A DNA stretch of 36,368 nucleotides from Flavobacteriaceae bacterium (lineage in GTDB: Bacteria; Bacteroidota; Bacteroidia; Flavobacteriales; Flavobacteriaceae): NCBI GenBank assembly GCA_027066745.1, contig JAMONB010000245.1, forward strand, positions 1 through 36,368, written 5' to 3'. Of this stretch, positions 14,762 to 19,005 are shown piece after piece (the first letter of the stretch is position 1; the number at the start of each line of letters is the position of its first letter). The position numbers and the translations under genes are program-made. A model generated the notes under the pieces. It had not been told where the DNA came from. It searched no databases and saw nothing but the letters and a program-made list of their open reading frames with translations.

Positions 14762-16150
14762 TTATGCACTTCTTTTCTTTTTGAAAATGATATTATACAT
14801 TGCTTTAAAGAAAAACTTAGTATCTGTTGTATATGGTTTTTCTTTTTTCTCTATGAGATATTCTTTTTCAGCTTGTAACACACTACCAACTGACCCCTTT
14901 CTATCTAATGCTACATAAGGAGGTACACAACCTGGCTTTTGAGTCAAACGCAATTCTTGAATATCTTTAGGGATATCTTGAAAATAACGCTCAGAAACTG
15001 GTCTAACTCCTACTAATTTCAATTCTCCTTTTAATACATTAATTAATTGTGGTAATTCGTCAAACCAATAACGACGCATAAATTTACCCCAAGGAACAAT
15101 TCTAAAATCATCTGCAGGTTTACCTGACTCTGCATACCCATTCAGCTTCAAAACATAATCTTGTAAATATTCTGAATATGGATGCATAGTTCTTAATTTA
15201 TATACACCAATAATTTTACCATTTTTACCTACACGATTCATTTTAAATAATGGTCCATAACTAGGGTTCATATTAAAAGCTGGCTCTTTTACTTTTTCAA
15301 CTACAAAATAATTTATACCATCAATTTCTTTTACGTCAATAATATCAAAACCACACGAAACTAATCTACCTAAAGACTCTGCTTTAGAAAGAAATCTATT
15401 TTTGCCCTTTGTAGAGAAAAAGTACAATTTCTTTAAAATTGGTAACTTTGGAAATACTCTTTTAAATAAAAACTCAAAGCCAAAGTATAAATGCTTTAAA
15501 ACAGGAATCTTATATATAGGATTCTTTTGAGCTATAGAGGTGAAAGTTTCAAAACTACCTAACAGCACGCCACCTATTGGTAACTTAGCGTTAACTTCTT
15601 CAAATTGTTTATTAATTTGTCTGAAATTATTTATTTTATCAAGTAAAATAACATTTTCAATACCATCTATATCATTATAGGCAGACAGTGTTTTATTCTG
15701 TGGAATTACTAAATTCTTTATAGAAGAAATATTAATAAACTTCTTAAAAAAGCTGTAAGCTTCTAGCCCTATCTCATCAACAATTGTATTCTTATTGTTA
15801 GTATTTAAAGCTCTTTGTAATATTTCAATTTCAGAATATTTATTAAATGCATCTAAAAATTCTTCTTTCCAATTAGAATATGTTTTAAGTGAAATGCCTT
15901 CTTTTTTACAAATCTCTTTTTCACTTTCTAAACCTACAAGTCCATCAACAACTATTTTAATTCTTTCTAGTGATGAGAAATCTGTAGCTTTTTTATATTT
16001 TAAAAGACGAGGTTTTAATGAAGTGTTTTTTTGCTTAACTAGAGGTTTAGCTATAGCAACAGACTTTAAGAATTCTTCAAGACTATCTTCATTTTTCAAC
16101 TTAAAATAATCTTTAAATTGAAATGCGTTGGTTGGGGAGTTATTAATCAT
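14762..16150 (-). CDS. Initiating sugar-phosphate transferase with N-terminal HTH-like domain
   Basis: A 462-residue protein whose C-terminal ~180 residues are a bacterial sugar transferase (WbaP/PglC-like), the enzyme that moves a sugar phosphate to undecaprenyl phosphate at the inner membrane and starts repeat-unit assembly. Visible motifs are FKMNRVGKNGKIIGVYKLRT, the DELPQLINVLKGELKLVGVRP catalytic block and TQKPGCVPPYVALDRKG. A middle segment (about 225-300) with LKHLYFGFEFLFKRVFPKL is the likely membrane-associated part. Residues ~55-100 (ERIKIVVDGLVGLES, EICKKEGISLKTYSNWKEEF) resemble the helix-turn-helix of IS3-type OrfA transposase subunits, which I would not expect here. It is the last gene of the cluster, typical for initiating transferases in Bacteroidota loci. 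Catalytic assignment is strong; the HTH reading is by eye. Confidence 0.88.
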   Translation of the reverse strand: MINNSPTNAFQFKDYFKLKNEDSLEEFLKSVAIAKPLVKQKNTSLKPRLLKYKKATDFSSLERIKIVVDGLVGLESEKEICKKEGISLKTYSNWKEEFLDAFNKYSEIEILQRALNTNNKNTIVDEIGLEAYSFFKKFINISSIKNLVIPQNKTLSAYNDIDGIENVILLDKINNFRQINKQFEEVNAKLPIGGVLLGSFETFTSIAQKNPIYKIPVLKHLYFGFEFLFKRVFPKLPILKKLYFFSTKGKNRFLSKAESLGRLVSCGFDIIDVKEIDGINYFVVEKVKEPAFNMNPSYGPLFKMNRVGKNGKIIGVYKLRTMHPYSEYLQDYVLKLNGYAESGKPADDFRIVPWGKFMRRYWFDELPQLINVLKGELKLVGVRPVSERYFQDIPKDIQELRLTQKPGCVPPYVALDRKGSVGSVLQAEKEYLIEKKEKPYTTDTKFFFKAMYNIIFKKKRSA

Positions 16151-16164
16151 AGCAATATTTTTAA

Positions 16165-16365
16165 TTAAACATTATCTTTTAAATAACAATCATGTGGACT
16201 TGCTCCAATGACGTGAATTAATTTGGGTTTAGTTAAAGATAAATAGTTGAAAGAAAAATATACTATATTTAAAAGGGTAAAAAATGTACCATTCTCAAGT
16301 TTTCGAAATAAAACTGAAAAATTAGTATTCCATTTTTCAATATACTTATAAGTTGTAAGTATCAT
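16165..16365 (-). other. Possible small gene or glycosyltransferase remnant (66 codons)
   Basis: An open frame of 66 residues starts 33 bases after a good -7 element and ends 14 bases before the sugar transferase start. Its end (LTKPKLIHVIGASPHDCYL) resembles the KPDxIHVH segment found about 90 residues into GT4 glycosyltransferases, but the rest of such a protein is missing. It could be a decayed glycosyltransferase fragment, a real small protein, or a leader for the downstream gene. Evidence for any of these is weak. Confidence 0.3.
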
Positions 16366-16397
16366 TTTTAAGGGGTTTCTTTTTTATATAGCTTTTG

Positions 16398-16430
16398 CAA
16401 ATATAATATAATTATTTAATATAACGCAAA
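16398..16430 (-). promoter_or_regulatory. Candidate promoter for the terminal sugar transferase unit
   Basis: On the - strand, TTTG at 16430-16427 is followed after 21 bases by TATATTTG (16405-16398), matching the Bacteroidota -33/-7 pattern. Transcription would begin near 16391, giving a leader of about 240 bases before the sugar transferase, or about 26 before the small 66-codon frame. Confidence 0.55.
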
Positions 16431-16530: not shown

Positions 16531-17325
16531 TCAAGAAAAAAATGATTTTATTCGTTTTTTTCTATACTGAATTGCTTCATTTAGATTTGGTGTTGTATTG
16601 TAAGTAGCTTTATCATCATCATTTGAAATATAATTAAATTCTTCTTTTTCTAAAATGTCTAAAGCCTCTATCATTGCCTTTGCTGCAATAGTATAATTTT
16701 TCTTGACAATTGAATTGAAATTATCTCTTTTTTTAACTTCATACTTCTTTTGTACAACAATATCTCCTGAGTCAATACCTTCTTCAACAAAATGTATTGA
16801 GACACCTGTTTCTGTTTCACCATTCAAAGCTACCCAAAAAGGTGTTAGCCTGCCTCTGTTTTTTGGCAACAAAGCATTATGTCTATTTAAGACACCTATT
16901 TTTGGAATACTCAACAGTTCTTTTTTTACTATGTTTTGGCTTTGATTTATAATAACATCTATATCAAGAGTTTCTAAATGTGTTCTGAATTTCTTACTGT
17001 TAGGTGTGGTTATCGATAAGGTTGGTATACCATTAGATTCTGCATAAGCTGCTATAGAAGGATCCTTTGAAATTCCCAAAGCAAATAATTTCTTTTTTAT
17101 TTTATGAAATACTGTTTTGACAGAAGTTTTAAAAAAATGCCATGGCCCCATGATTAATAATAATGAAAGAACATAAGTATATTTAGATTTTCCTTTTGAA
17201 AGAGTTAACCTATTTCCTTTAGGGATTGCTAATCCAACAATTTCATCTTTTTTTGCATCAATAATTTCTTTAATAAAATCGTAGGTTTGGATAGGGTCAT
17301 CCATTGTAATAATATATATTCTCAT
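16531..17325 (-). CDS. Formyltransferase, probably acting on a nucleotide amino sugar
   Basis: A 264-residue member of the N10-formyl-tetrahydrofolate-dependent formyltransferase fold. The catalytic triad is present as N147, H149 and D185 (LNRHNALLPKNRG, then EEGIDSGDIV), with the same 38-residue spacing as N108/D146 in E. coli methionyl-tRNA formyltransferase. It lacks the C-terminal tRNA-binding domain of that enzyme (about 315 residues), and the N-terminus (IIDAKKDEIVGLAIPKGNR) matches sugar-type formyltransferases. In a polysaccharide locus it likely makes an N-formyl amino sugar on a nucleotide carrier. Its ATG overlaps the stop of the upstream deacetylase by one base (TAATG), so the two are coupled. 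Last gene of the nine-gene run; 165 bases of non-coding DNA follow. Substrate is inferred. Confidence 0.85.
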   Translation of the reverse strand: MRIYIITMDDPIQTYDFIKEIIDAKKDEIVGLAIPKGNRLTLSKGKSKYTYVLSLLLIMGPWHFFKTSVKTVFHKIKKKLFALGISKDPSIAAYAESNGIPTLSITTPNSKKFRTHLETLDIDVIINQSQNIVKKELLSIPKIGVLNRHNALLPKNRGRLTPFWVALNGETETGVSIHFVEEGIDSGDIVVQKKYEVKKRDNFNSIVKKNYTIAAKAMIEALDILEKEEFNYISNDDDKATYNTTPNLNEAIQYRKKRIKSFFS

Positions 17326-18245
17326 TATAGTAAGCCTTTTTGTTTACAAAACTCTTTTATTGTACAAAATTTAAATTCATGTTTCTCAAAATATTTAATC
17401 TCTCTTTCATATATTTTAATACCTTTAATTCCTAAATTTTTAACTTTAAGTTTTGACCTTAAAGTATCTTGTAAAAAAGCAGCTAAAAAGTTTTTTGATC
17501 TTTTATTAATTTGTCTCTCTTCATCACTTTCATCAATAAATTCATTTGGATGTGTATCAAATACAATAGGTTTTCCTGTTATTGAAGACTCAAAAGCCAT
17601 TACCCTGCGTTGAAGTGCTGTAAGCGTTGGAAATATTCGCATAGTAGTACTTAAATACGGTAAGATTGAAGCTGTTAAAGGCACTTCTATAATTTGCCCC
17701 TCTCCCTTCTTAAAAAGGGAATTTTCACTTGTACGGTAAGGCAATCTAGGAGCAGTTAGCCAATTCAACTTTTTTAATCCGCCAAATGACATAAACATAT
17801 CAAATCGTTGAGAAGCAACTGAACTGTCAATTTTATAATTAGTTTCTGCCAATGCAATTGCAGTATCATTGTTTACTCTGAGAGCTGGAGCTCTAAACGA
17901 AATAATTTCTTCACCTATAATATTTTCAATAATATCTTTAGATTCTTTCAAGTGATTTATCTGTTTTTGCAATGGCATTACATCAAATCCATTTTCTTTT
18001 GTATGAGATAAACCATGGCTTCCAACTTCATGACCGTAAGGAACAACCATTTTAACAATTTCAGGATATAATTTTGCGATATAACCTGTAAAATAAAAAG
18101 TAGATTTTACATTGTATTTTGCATATAAGTCTAACAATAAAGGCATCCCTTCTTTCAAAACCTTATAACCGGTTTCATCTCTTAATGAATTGTGCCAAAT
18201 GGATGTCGTTTCTACATCATTTGATAATAAACAGTATTTATTCAT
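17325..18245 (-). CDS. Polysaccharide deacetylase (NodB/CE4 family)
   Basis: A 306-residue NodB-homology protein without signal peptide. Motif 1 is SNDVE (D10, E12), motif 2 GHEVGSHGLSH (H77 and H81, the metal histidines), motif 3 FRAPALR near residue 117, and a later DTHPNEFID supplies the motif-5-like histidine. It resembles the cytoplasmic group that removes N-acyl groups from sugars or lipid-linked precursors. It is separated by one base from the WbmS-like gene upstream and overlaps the formyltransferase downstream by one base. The pairing suggests that a freed amine made by deacetylation is then formylated; this is inference from order alone. Confidence 0.85.
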   Translation of the reverse strand: MNKYCLLSNDVETTSIWHNSLRDETGYKVLKEGMPLLLDLYAKYNVKSTFYFTGYIAKLYPEIVKMVVPYGHEVGSHGLSHTKENGFDVMPLQKQINHLKESKDIIENIIGEEIISFRAPALRVNNDTAIALAETNYKIDSSVASQRFDMFMSFGGLKKLNWLTAPRLPYRTSENSLFKKGEGQIIEVPLTASILPYLSTTMRIFPTLTALQRRVMAFESSITGKPIVFDTHPNEFIDESDEERQINKRSKNFLAAFLQDTLRSKLKVKNLGIKGIKIYEREIKYFEKHEFKFCTIKEFCKQKGLL

Positions 18246-18246
18246 C

Positions 18247-19005
18247 TTATTTTCTATATTTCACCAACATAGCTTTAACTACATTTTTAATGTTTTGCAT
18301 AACCAATTCAACAAACCATAATCCACCAACATCAAACCATCTATGAGGGTGTGTACTAATAATTAACTTATTGGGTAATTTATCTTGTTTAATCAATTCC
18401 ATCATATGATCGATACTCTTAATTGGAATATCATATTTTGTATCTACTTTATCTCTTAAAATAACACTTTTTTTATTCCAAGCTCTACCTGTATCTGTAA
18501 TATAAAAAACTTCATCATAATCGACATCAAAATAAGGTTCTGCTATAATTCCATTTTCTTTGTAATTATATTTTTCCCATATTTGACGATTGTCAATACT
18601 ATTTTCAGGACTTCCATGCATACAAACTGTTGTAATTGGATAAAAAGTGCGAAAGTATTCTAAATTCTTTTGATATAAACTAAAAGCTTTTTCAAAATCA
18701 CCTTTAGCCATTCCTAAATCTTCGTAGTGATAACCTAGCTCATGCCCCATTGAGACAACTTCTTTAATTACATTTTGATCATTACTTTCTGGCACAATTC
18801 TAAAATAATAACTTCCTTTTACATTTAAAGAATGTTCAATCTTAGCAAGCCAAGTCGCATTTATTGATCTTCTATCAACATCATGTCTTAAAACAACTAC
18901 CTTATCTTTAGGGTTCTGAATAAAATCTTCAAAAGTTTGAACATTGTAATTCTTTTCAATTAAAACTTCAAGTAACTGTTTATATTTTTTTAATGTAAAG
19001 TCCAT
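18247..19005 (-). CDS. WbmS-like NodB-fold protein
   Basis: A 252-residue protein related to the WbmS-like branch of the NodB (polysaccharide deacetylase) fold, known from the Bordetella O-antigen locus. Seen motifs: VVLRHDVDRR (H41, D42, D44), KGSYYFRI, MGHELGYHYEDL (H88, H93), TVCMHGSPEN and STHPHRWFD. The second histidine of the standard HxxxH metal site is not present (L97 at that position), so metal binding, if any, uses other ligands; this seems a trait of the branch. No signal peptide. Gaps to neighbours are 1 and 3 bases, so it belongs to the same translation run. Activity of the branch is not firmly established. Confidence 0.78.
   Translation of the reverse strand: MDFTLKKYKQLLEVLIEKNYNVQTFEDFIQNPKDKVVVLRHDVDRRSINATWLAKIEHSLNVKGSYYFRIVPESNDQNVIKEVVSMGHELGYHYEDLGMAKGDFEKAFSLYQKNLEYFRTFYPITTVCMHGSPENSIDNRQIWEKYNYKENGIIAEPYFDVDYDEVFYITDTGRAWNKKSVILRDKVDTKYDIPIKSIDHMMELIKQDKLPNKLIISTHPHRWFDVGGLWFVELVMQNIKNVVKAMLVKYRK

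Follow-up and report, generated by a model that had tools for sequence, protein, structure and literature searches.

A phosphoglycosyl transferase-like protein bearing an IS3 OrfA-type helix-turn-helix in a flavobacterial polysaccharide locus

The locus and its 462-residue protein

The window, the whole 36,368-nucleotide stretch of flavobacterial DNA analysed here, carries on its minus strand a single uninterrupted open reading frame (ORF) of 462 amino acids (Table 1), in which a helix-turn-helix (HTH) and a sugar-phosphate transferase domain stand in one frame, as a sequence-only reading of this DNA had claimed. The gene is the last of a minus-strand run of a surface-polysaccharide locus. The host appears to be an Aureibaculum-type flavobacterium, the assignment to genus being probable; one relative of the gene, L004, is from Aureibaculum flavum.

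Table 1 Features of the transferase-like gene, its leader and the neighbouring genes. Residue numbers refer to the encoded protein.
Feature	Position	Strand	Basis or content
HTH / methyltransferase-like / phosphoglycosyl transferase (PGT)-core protein, 462 aa	14762..16150	-	ORF; Pfam Bac_transf 87.6 bits; genus relatives in 14/17 genomes
N-terminal tail, residues 1-52, fast-evolving	15995..16150	-	pLDDT < 50 at 1-21 and 33-50
HTH of IS3 OrfA (HTH_Tnp_1) type by sequence, residues 56-100	15851..15985	-	
Long helix, residues 88-127	15770..15889	-	AlphaFold2 whole-protein model; also HTH-only model (helix 45-83 of 84)
Methyltransferase-like Rossmann domain without SAM motif (pseudo-methyltransferase), residues 124-289	15284..15781	-	VIA structure match
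Hydrophobic helix-break-helix, residues 218-247	15410..15499	-	Helices 218-235 and 237-247 (AlphaFold2)
PGT catalytic core without reentrant membrane helix, residues 294-457	14780..15271	-	WbaP/PglC structure matches; Bac_transf model positions 34-174
D364-E365 pair	15056..15061	-	42/42 rows; aligns with DE of WbaP
Leader, block-conserved among close relatives	16151..16410	-	TATATTTGC promoter-like box, CCCCT block, palindrome-like ATACTTACAACTTATAAGTAT (by eye), CTTTCAACTATTTWTCTTTAACTAA
Leader element CTTTCAACTATTTWTCTTTAACTAA, 25 bp	16229-16253		Two CTTT(C)AACTA-like repeats (by eye)
Upstream polysaccharide-locus genes	16531..19005	-	Formyl transferase, polysaccharide deacetylase, 252-aa ORF
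Formyl transferase gene	16531-17325	-	Pfam Formyl_trans_N 72.1 bits
Polysaccharide deacetylase gene	17325-18245	-	Pfam Polysacc_deac_1 63.9 bits
252-aa ORF, deacetylase-like by eye only	18247-19005	-	No Pfam match at E<=0.001

In the seven regions that we examined by eye, the gene comes last or nearly last, in the downstream direction, in a run of polysaccharide-type genes. An ORF of about 800 residues with a GYGYG tail adjoins it in five of the seven (L083-L087); the four that we took by eye to be Wzc-like (L083, L084, L085 and L087) all match GNVR, Wzz and AAA_31, as Wzc-type kinases do, the Wzz match of L083 falling just below its cut-off. On the other side, the window, L082 and L088 hold fumarylacetoacetase-like and other housekeeping genes (by eye).

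An AlphaFold2 model built on a 42-sequence alignment has a mean pLDDT of 80.2 and places helices at residues 60-72, 77-84 and 88-127 in the HTH region (block pLDDT 79-88 for residues 51-100); the last of these opens as the third, or recognition, helix of the HTH and extends towards the next domain. The family was assembled as 57 records, eight of them identical to another record and five shorter than 300 residues after trimming to the first methionine (L049, L017, L018, L036 and the second ORF of L038), leaving 44 references; identical proteins are encoded by L002-L005 and by L039, L040, L043 and L044, whose contigs have the same length. Alignment A3 holds 42 of the 44, without L035 and L037, and in it the window protein stands for L001. 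At the edges of the family, L037 (G534:C93; 432 residues) has another N terminus, resembling by eye the winged-helix dimerisation domain of O-methyltransferases, and L038/L026 (G566:C111) comprises a family gene followed by a second, partial copy that reaches the contig end. A further eight relatives (L020, L023-L025 and L029-L032) are about 650-680 residues long; in place of the HTH they have an N-terminal region of membrane-spanning appearance (by eye), and they form one group in the tree of the enzyme part (support 100/100).

The leader of about 260 bp aligns between the window, L002-L004, L006, L007, L041 and L042. Its element CTTTCAACTATTTWTCTTTAACTAA lies upstream of the gene in 8 of the 17 genomes of the genus, unchanged except at one W position; four genomes with an HTH-bearing copy (G781 and G784-G786) yielded no match to it. 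The first 16 bases recur at three mismatches in four genomes (L109-L112), upstream of a 213-219-codon open frame that looks unconnected with polysaccharides, and a backwards control pattern at three mismatches gave one match in each of two genomes; because the partial copy precedes an unrelated frame and the control also matched, we rejected the element as a marker of a polysaccharide regulon. A small upstream ORF (66-69 residues, MILTTYKY...FSFNYFSLTK), open in eight sequences including the window, was likewise rejected as a protein, since its dN of 0.11-0.35 is near its dS of 0.14-0.41 in five pairs; we therefore read its conservation as that of a DNA or RNA element. Rfam at gathering thresholds, run on five sources including the window leader, returned one tRNA in L082 and nothing else.

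Two further features of the leaders were seen. Those of L050, L051 and L053 carry CCCC early and a second time some 20 bases ahead of the start codon, and GGGG lies between the two, an arrangement in which alternative pairings are possible (by eye). Across genera, TTTGCT or ATTGCT stands immediately before the ATG in 13 of the 19 leaders compared, which are those of the HTH-bearing genes and L048. Past the start codon, the first 52 codons of L004, L041 and L042 show synonymous divergence of 0.06-0.13, against 0.44-1.51 in the other domains, reflecting either nucleotide-level constraint or local recombination.

The transferase core and its association with the membrane

The C-terminal domain matches solved PGT structures (WbaP 8t53, Z 13.2; PglC 8e37, Z 11.3), and the Pfam Bac_transf (PF02397) match at residues 299-451 lies above its curated cut-off of 27 bits. 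Residues D364, E365, R320, R350, R359, R383 and P384 are invariant in all 42 aligned rows; we take D364-E365 to correspond to the Asp-Glu pair of PglC, catalytic in that enzyme. Ahead of this core, residues 125-289 match 3cc8 (VIA; Z 12.0, rmsd 3.3, 132 residues aligned) and, among the 50 rows listed, class I SAM-dependent methyltransferases at Z of about 9.4-12, while SAM motif I, [DE]xGxGxG, occurs in none of the 42 rows when the C-terminal 230 residues of each are left out. These matches point to a PglC/WbaP-like catalytic core that rides on a methyltransferase-like Rossmann domain devoid of its SAM motif.

The sequence-only reading had described a complete membrane transferase, and this does not hold: the Bac_transf match starts at position 34 of the 179 of the model, and the reentrant membrane helix is absent. 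Consistent with this, the PglC alignment covers PglC from residue 38 onward only. PF02397 matches occur in 16 of the 17 genus genomes; all 14 copies of the present gene in the genus start at model position 34-35, as do the HTH-less relatives L014, L016 and L030 at 34-36, in contrast to the other 23 PF02397 matches of the genus, which without exception start at position 1. Hydropathy gives the same picture: the Kyte-Doolittle maximum of the window protein over 19-residue windows is 1.01, against peaks of 2.62, 2.98, 3.09 and 3.43 in four other PF02397 proteins of the genus, about 76-79 residues before the DELP motif (the peaks were placed by distance to DELP, as the GPxF anchor matched nothing). 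Across the 42 rows, with the long forms cut to their last 400 residues, no value exceeds 1.71 and L031 alone exceeds 1.6. PF13727 is absent from the three Pfam families that match the window protein at E<=10, and the protein has no segment of transmembrane grade.

PMC6133551 describes the reentrant membrane helix as a conserved feature of the monotopic PGT superfamily that is thought to bind polyprenol; the helix is reported to anchor PglC and probably to bind its lipid substrate. A protein without such a helix might use a different acceptor or be inactive. The latter would fit a protein that is no longer a PGT and acts instead as a soluble protein that binds nucleotide sugars and regulates the polysaccharide machinery, as would the hydropathy of the family and the sequence KPGxxPP... 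that by eye takes the place of the PglC-type C-terminal motif. So would the company that the gene keeps, as 13 of the 14 genus genomes with the gene hold one or two further PF02397 matches, from which it follows that it need not be the sole initiator, or that of its locus. The invariance of the checked core residues speaks against this regulator, however, as do the eight long relatives, whose membrane-like N-terminal regions suggest work at the membrane, and the window's own draft genome (91% complete), which holds no further PF02397 match; we consider it improbable.

We favour an active, if divergent, enzyme that would transfer sugar-1-phosphate to polyprenyl phosphate, as far as sequence can tell. 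Because the reentrant helix is missing, we presume that such an enzyme would be held at the membrane surface by hydrophobic helices of its own. Residues 218-247 are the candidates: the two predicted helices have mean hydrophobicity of 0.69 and 0.79, and R231, P234 and K235 are kept in 42, 39 and 41 of the 42 rows, so these helices may replace the reentrant one as a peripheral membrane anchor.

Kinship and distribution of the helix-turn-helix

The sequence-only reading had placed a transposase OrfA-type HTH at residues of about 55-100 and proposed a profile search of the N terminus as a check. On the window protein alone, this search stayed below the Pfam curated cut-offs, both for HTH_Tnp_1 (residues 58-99, 14.0 bits, E 0.059, cut-off 24.1) and for HTH_23 (residues 62-98, E 0.048). 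With the relatives it became significant: among 42 family members, of which 18 bear the HTH, 15 match HTH_Tnp_1 at E<=0.1; the best E is 1.6e-7, and one relative, L055, is above the cut-off at 27.2 bits. DUF1153, the other family named, fared poorly, with one match below cut-off (L051, E 0.1).

Searching 296 genomes of the phylum with a profile of 21 fused HTHs (alignment A2), we found matches at E<=1e-4 in 19 genomes. The best unfused matches are the short ORFs L058, L060 and L061 (E 6.1e-22, 1.5e-20 and 2.5e-18), which are above the HTH_Tnp_1 cut-off themselves (53.0, 55.9 and 58.4 bits) and each adjoin an ORF with an rve integrase core, that is, OrfB. In the reverse direction, a profile of ten stand-alone OrfA segments gave E 3.8e-11 for the window protein and no worse than 3.3e-7 for any HTH-bearing record; the 24 of 57 family records matched are exactly the HTH-bearing ones, duplicates included, and no match was reported among 5700 shuffled and 57 reversed decoy sequences. 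This reverse profile is not fully independent, because its ten OrfAs had been picked with the fused-HTH profile and thus selected for similarity; the Pfam and plasmid results are independent of it. Among plasmids, tblastn of the N-terminal 132 residues matched 400 records, and of the 20 listed 13 are annotated 'IS3 family transposase' (their best E 3e-6), one is traR, and six have no feature at the site, including the best row (E 5e-7).

Modelled alone, the HTH segment (84 residues) reached a pLDDT of 84.6. Foldseek of this model against the PDB gave no match at E<=0.001, and VIA gave a best Z of 6.5, with TnpE (2rn7), which we take to be an IS3-type OrfA, at 5.2 and IstA at 5.3-5.4; this comparison is consistent with an HTH and short of decisive. 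With the helices of the AlphaFold2 model and the OrfA profile match, the OrfA-type HTH is borne out, and on sequence grounds residues 56-100 are an HTH of IS3 OrfA type. A native HTH of no transposon origin, whose OrfA likeness arose by convergence or by descent in the reverse direction, would sit well with the sub-threshold Pfam scores of the window alone and with the structure searches of the HTH, in which numerous unrelated proteins, whether HTH, homeodomain-like or otherwise helical, appear at similar scores. This reading is already disfavoured, and we think it highly improbable, since the best sequence relatives outside the fusions are precisely the OrfAs with rve neighbours.

Little else of the parental element was seen. 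In OrfA a dimerising zipper comes after the HTH region; by eye, no such region was recognisable in the fused proteins. No OrfB (rve) was seen by eye among the window ORFs of at least 150 residues, the frame running instead into the transferase. A script test for inverted repeats on the flanks of L060 and L061 returned nothing; when the flanks of L060, L061 and L075 were inspected by eye, those of L061 and L075 shared a left boundary, and no copies of these ends were seen by eye in the leader of the fused gene.

The HTH-bearing form occurs in a small group of marine bacteria. The gene is present in 14 of the 17 genomes of the window's genus, including all 11 that reach 90% completeness with no more than 5% contamination. 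One copy, L049, is ended by the contig end; of the 13 whose N terminus is complete, 12 carry a single HTH, and the exception, L048, lacks it yet remains in frame, with none visible by eye in its other two frames. A search for the fusion in other Bacteroidota had likewise been proposed beforehand: a second genus of the family, g26, has the gene in 5 of 22 genomes, all five copies carrying two tandem HTHs, and beyond these genera we found it in at least one sampled genome, from family f33 (L050 of G498; gene in 1 of 54 genomes, one HTH). In even samples, relatives at E<=1e-30 occur in at least 8 of 397 family, 26 of 395 phylum and 8 of 395 order genomes, of which at least four, three and two, respectively, bear the HTH; these belong to the window's genus or to g26, or are G498. 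Alignments to the HTH-less relatives begin past the HTH, at query residue 104 or later in the family and phylum samples and, in the order sample, at residue 165 or later of a two-HTH query.

The enzyme part of 42 rows, of which the long forms were reduced to their C-terminal 400 residues, gave a maximum-likelihood tree over 324 columns in which the 18 HTH-bearing rows and the HTH-less L048 form one group of 19 (support 100/100, branch 0.91); a single capture is thus the simplest history suggested by this tree. Within the group, L050 with its one HTH falls among the two-HTH copies at modest support (88/88), so at least two changes in HTH number are probable. The tree of the HTHs themselves (28 sequences, 68 columns) separates OrfA, Aureibaculum, first g26 and second g26 copies, with a weak base at which the order of the tandem copies relative to OrfA is without support.

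The role of the helix-turn-helix and comparison with known systems

Purifying selection acts on the HTH codons: seven of the eight pairs compared have an HTH dN of 0.008-0.19 against a dS of 0.44-0.82 or saturated; the weakest pair, the window and L002, has dN 0.134 against dS 0.298. Residues V67, S76, C81 and E84 are identical in all 18 fused rows and W94 in 15. The sequence-only reading's claim that a transposase fragment was captured and domesticated is, with the OrfA kinship and the single tree group, well supported. Selection that preserves a fold is no proof that the HTH has a function, and constraint on the HTH is looser than on the PGT core, the HTH dN being the higher in seven of eight pairs. 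A tolerated relic of in-frame capture with no role beyond folding would fit this laxity, the fast-evolving tail that flanks the HTH, the HTH-less but in-frame L048, and the lack of the HTH from the rest of the sampled family. We doubt it, as the low dN/dS, the retention of the HTH in nearly every full-length genus copy, and its doubling and upkeep throughout the g26 copies all point the other way.

What the HTH would do is suggested by its surface. Third-helix positions 88, 89, 92 and 93, whose exposure we took from the HTH pattern, vary among the 18 fused rows, also within the genus. The net charge of segments of about 50 residues ranges from -3 to +3 in the 18 fused HTHs and from +1 to +7 in nine OrfAs; these ranges overlap, and K or R stands at position 89 in 9 of the 18 fused rows, so some DNA binding may have been retained. 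Contact positions may also differ between OrfAs of different elements. The sequence-only reading had raised, as its other option, a module binding DNA or protein that could couple the start of polysaccharide synthesis to regulation. Taken as sequence evidence, charge and third helix lean against sequence-specific DNA binding, and because of them we judge docking or oligomerisation likelier than operator binding.

BirA and PutA are trigger enzymes in other pathways, and by analogy the HTH might still bind DNA, the same polypeptide initiating the polysaccharide and regulating its own leader or locus. The purifying selection that has kept the core of the HTH, the lack of any transmembrane-grade segment that would bar access to DNA, the leader element upstream of the gene in 8 of the 17 genus genomes and the K or Q before the Trp in all five first HTHs of g26 could be read this way. 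On the other hand, the exposed third-helix positions differ between congeners although the leader element is constant, the net charge tends lower than in OrfAs, the element was not found in the four HTH-keeping genomes named above, and it recurs in part near an unrelated frame, at a mismatch level at which the control pattern also matched. We hold such an enzyme to be unlikely; a dual-function form, in which one or two HTH copies would bind the leader or locus and substrate occupancy would directly set polysaccharide gene expression, is distinctly unlikely.

We therefore prefer a divergent initiating PGT with a captured OrfA HTH whose present role would be that of a folded module for docking or oligomerisation, not that of a sequence-specific DNA binder, an explanation to which, taken whole, we give a probability of about 0.6. 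On this explanation, the N terminus would have received the OrfA HTH of an IS3-family element by in-frame fusion, in the simplest case a single time, in the common ancestor of the tree group described above; afterwards one genus would have doubled the HTH in tandem and at least one species would have lost it. The apparent stages of recruitment are still visible as unfused OrfA, single fusion, tandem duplication and loss, making this a traceable recruitment of a bacterial transposase domain into a metabolic enzyme. It also draws attention to a PGT-like family of Bacteroidota that, where checked, lacks the reentrant helix on an otherwise intact core and whose N termini differ (short, membrane-like, one HTH or two HTHs); in such a family, either the lipid is bound otherwise or the reaction differs.

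Searches of open full-text papers listed no fusion of a PGT with a transposase HTH, in agreement with the sequence-only reading, according to which no enzyme of this design is known to have been characterised. The 'helix-turn-helix' of WbaP in PMC10942596 is a structural motif near the active site and not the domain described here.

Both parts of the protein are known, and it is the combination of HTH and PGT, together with the helix-less core, that is unusual. Like monotopic PGTs (PglC, WbaP; PF02397), it has the catalytic core fold and the conserved residues, the Asp-Glu pair among them, but it lacks the reentrant membrane helix and has an extra HTH; where large PGTs of the WbaP type have a four-helix bundle and PF13727, it has a methyltransferase-like domain, whose Rossmann-like fold is that of class I SAM-dependent methyltransferases although their [DE]xGxGxG motif is missing. 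Its HTH shares sequence and predicted fold with that of IS3-family OrfA (PF01527, HTH_Tnp_1), but is fused to an enzyme-like protein, has no adjoining OrfB and tends to lower charge. In EpsZ/EpsW of Myxococcus xanthus (PMC12802240), a separate single-domain response regulator binds the initiating PGT, so that regulatory input falls directly on that enzyme; here, a transposase-derived module is instead covalently fused to the PGT-like protein.
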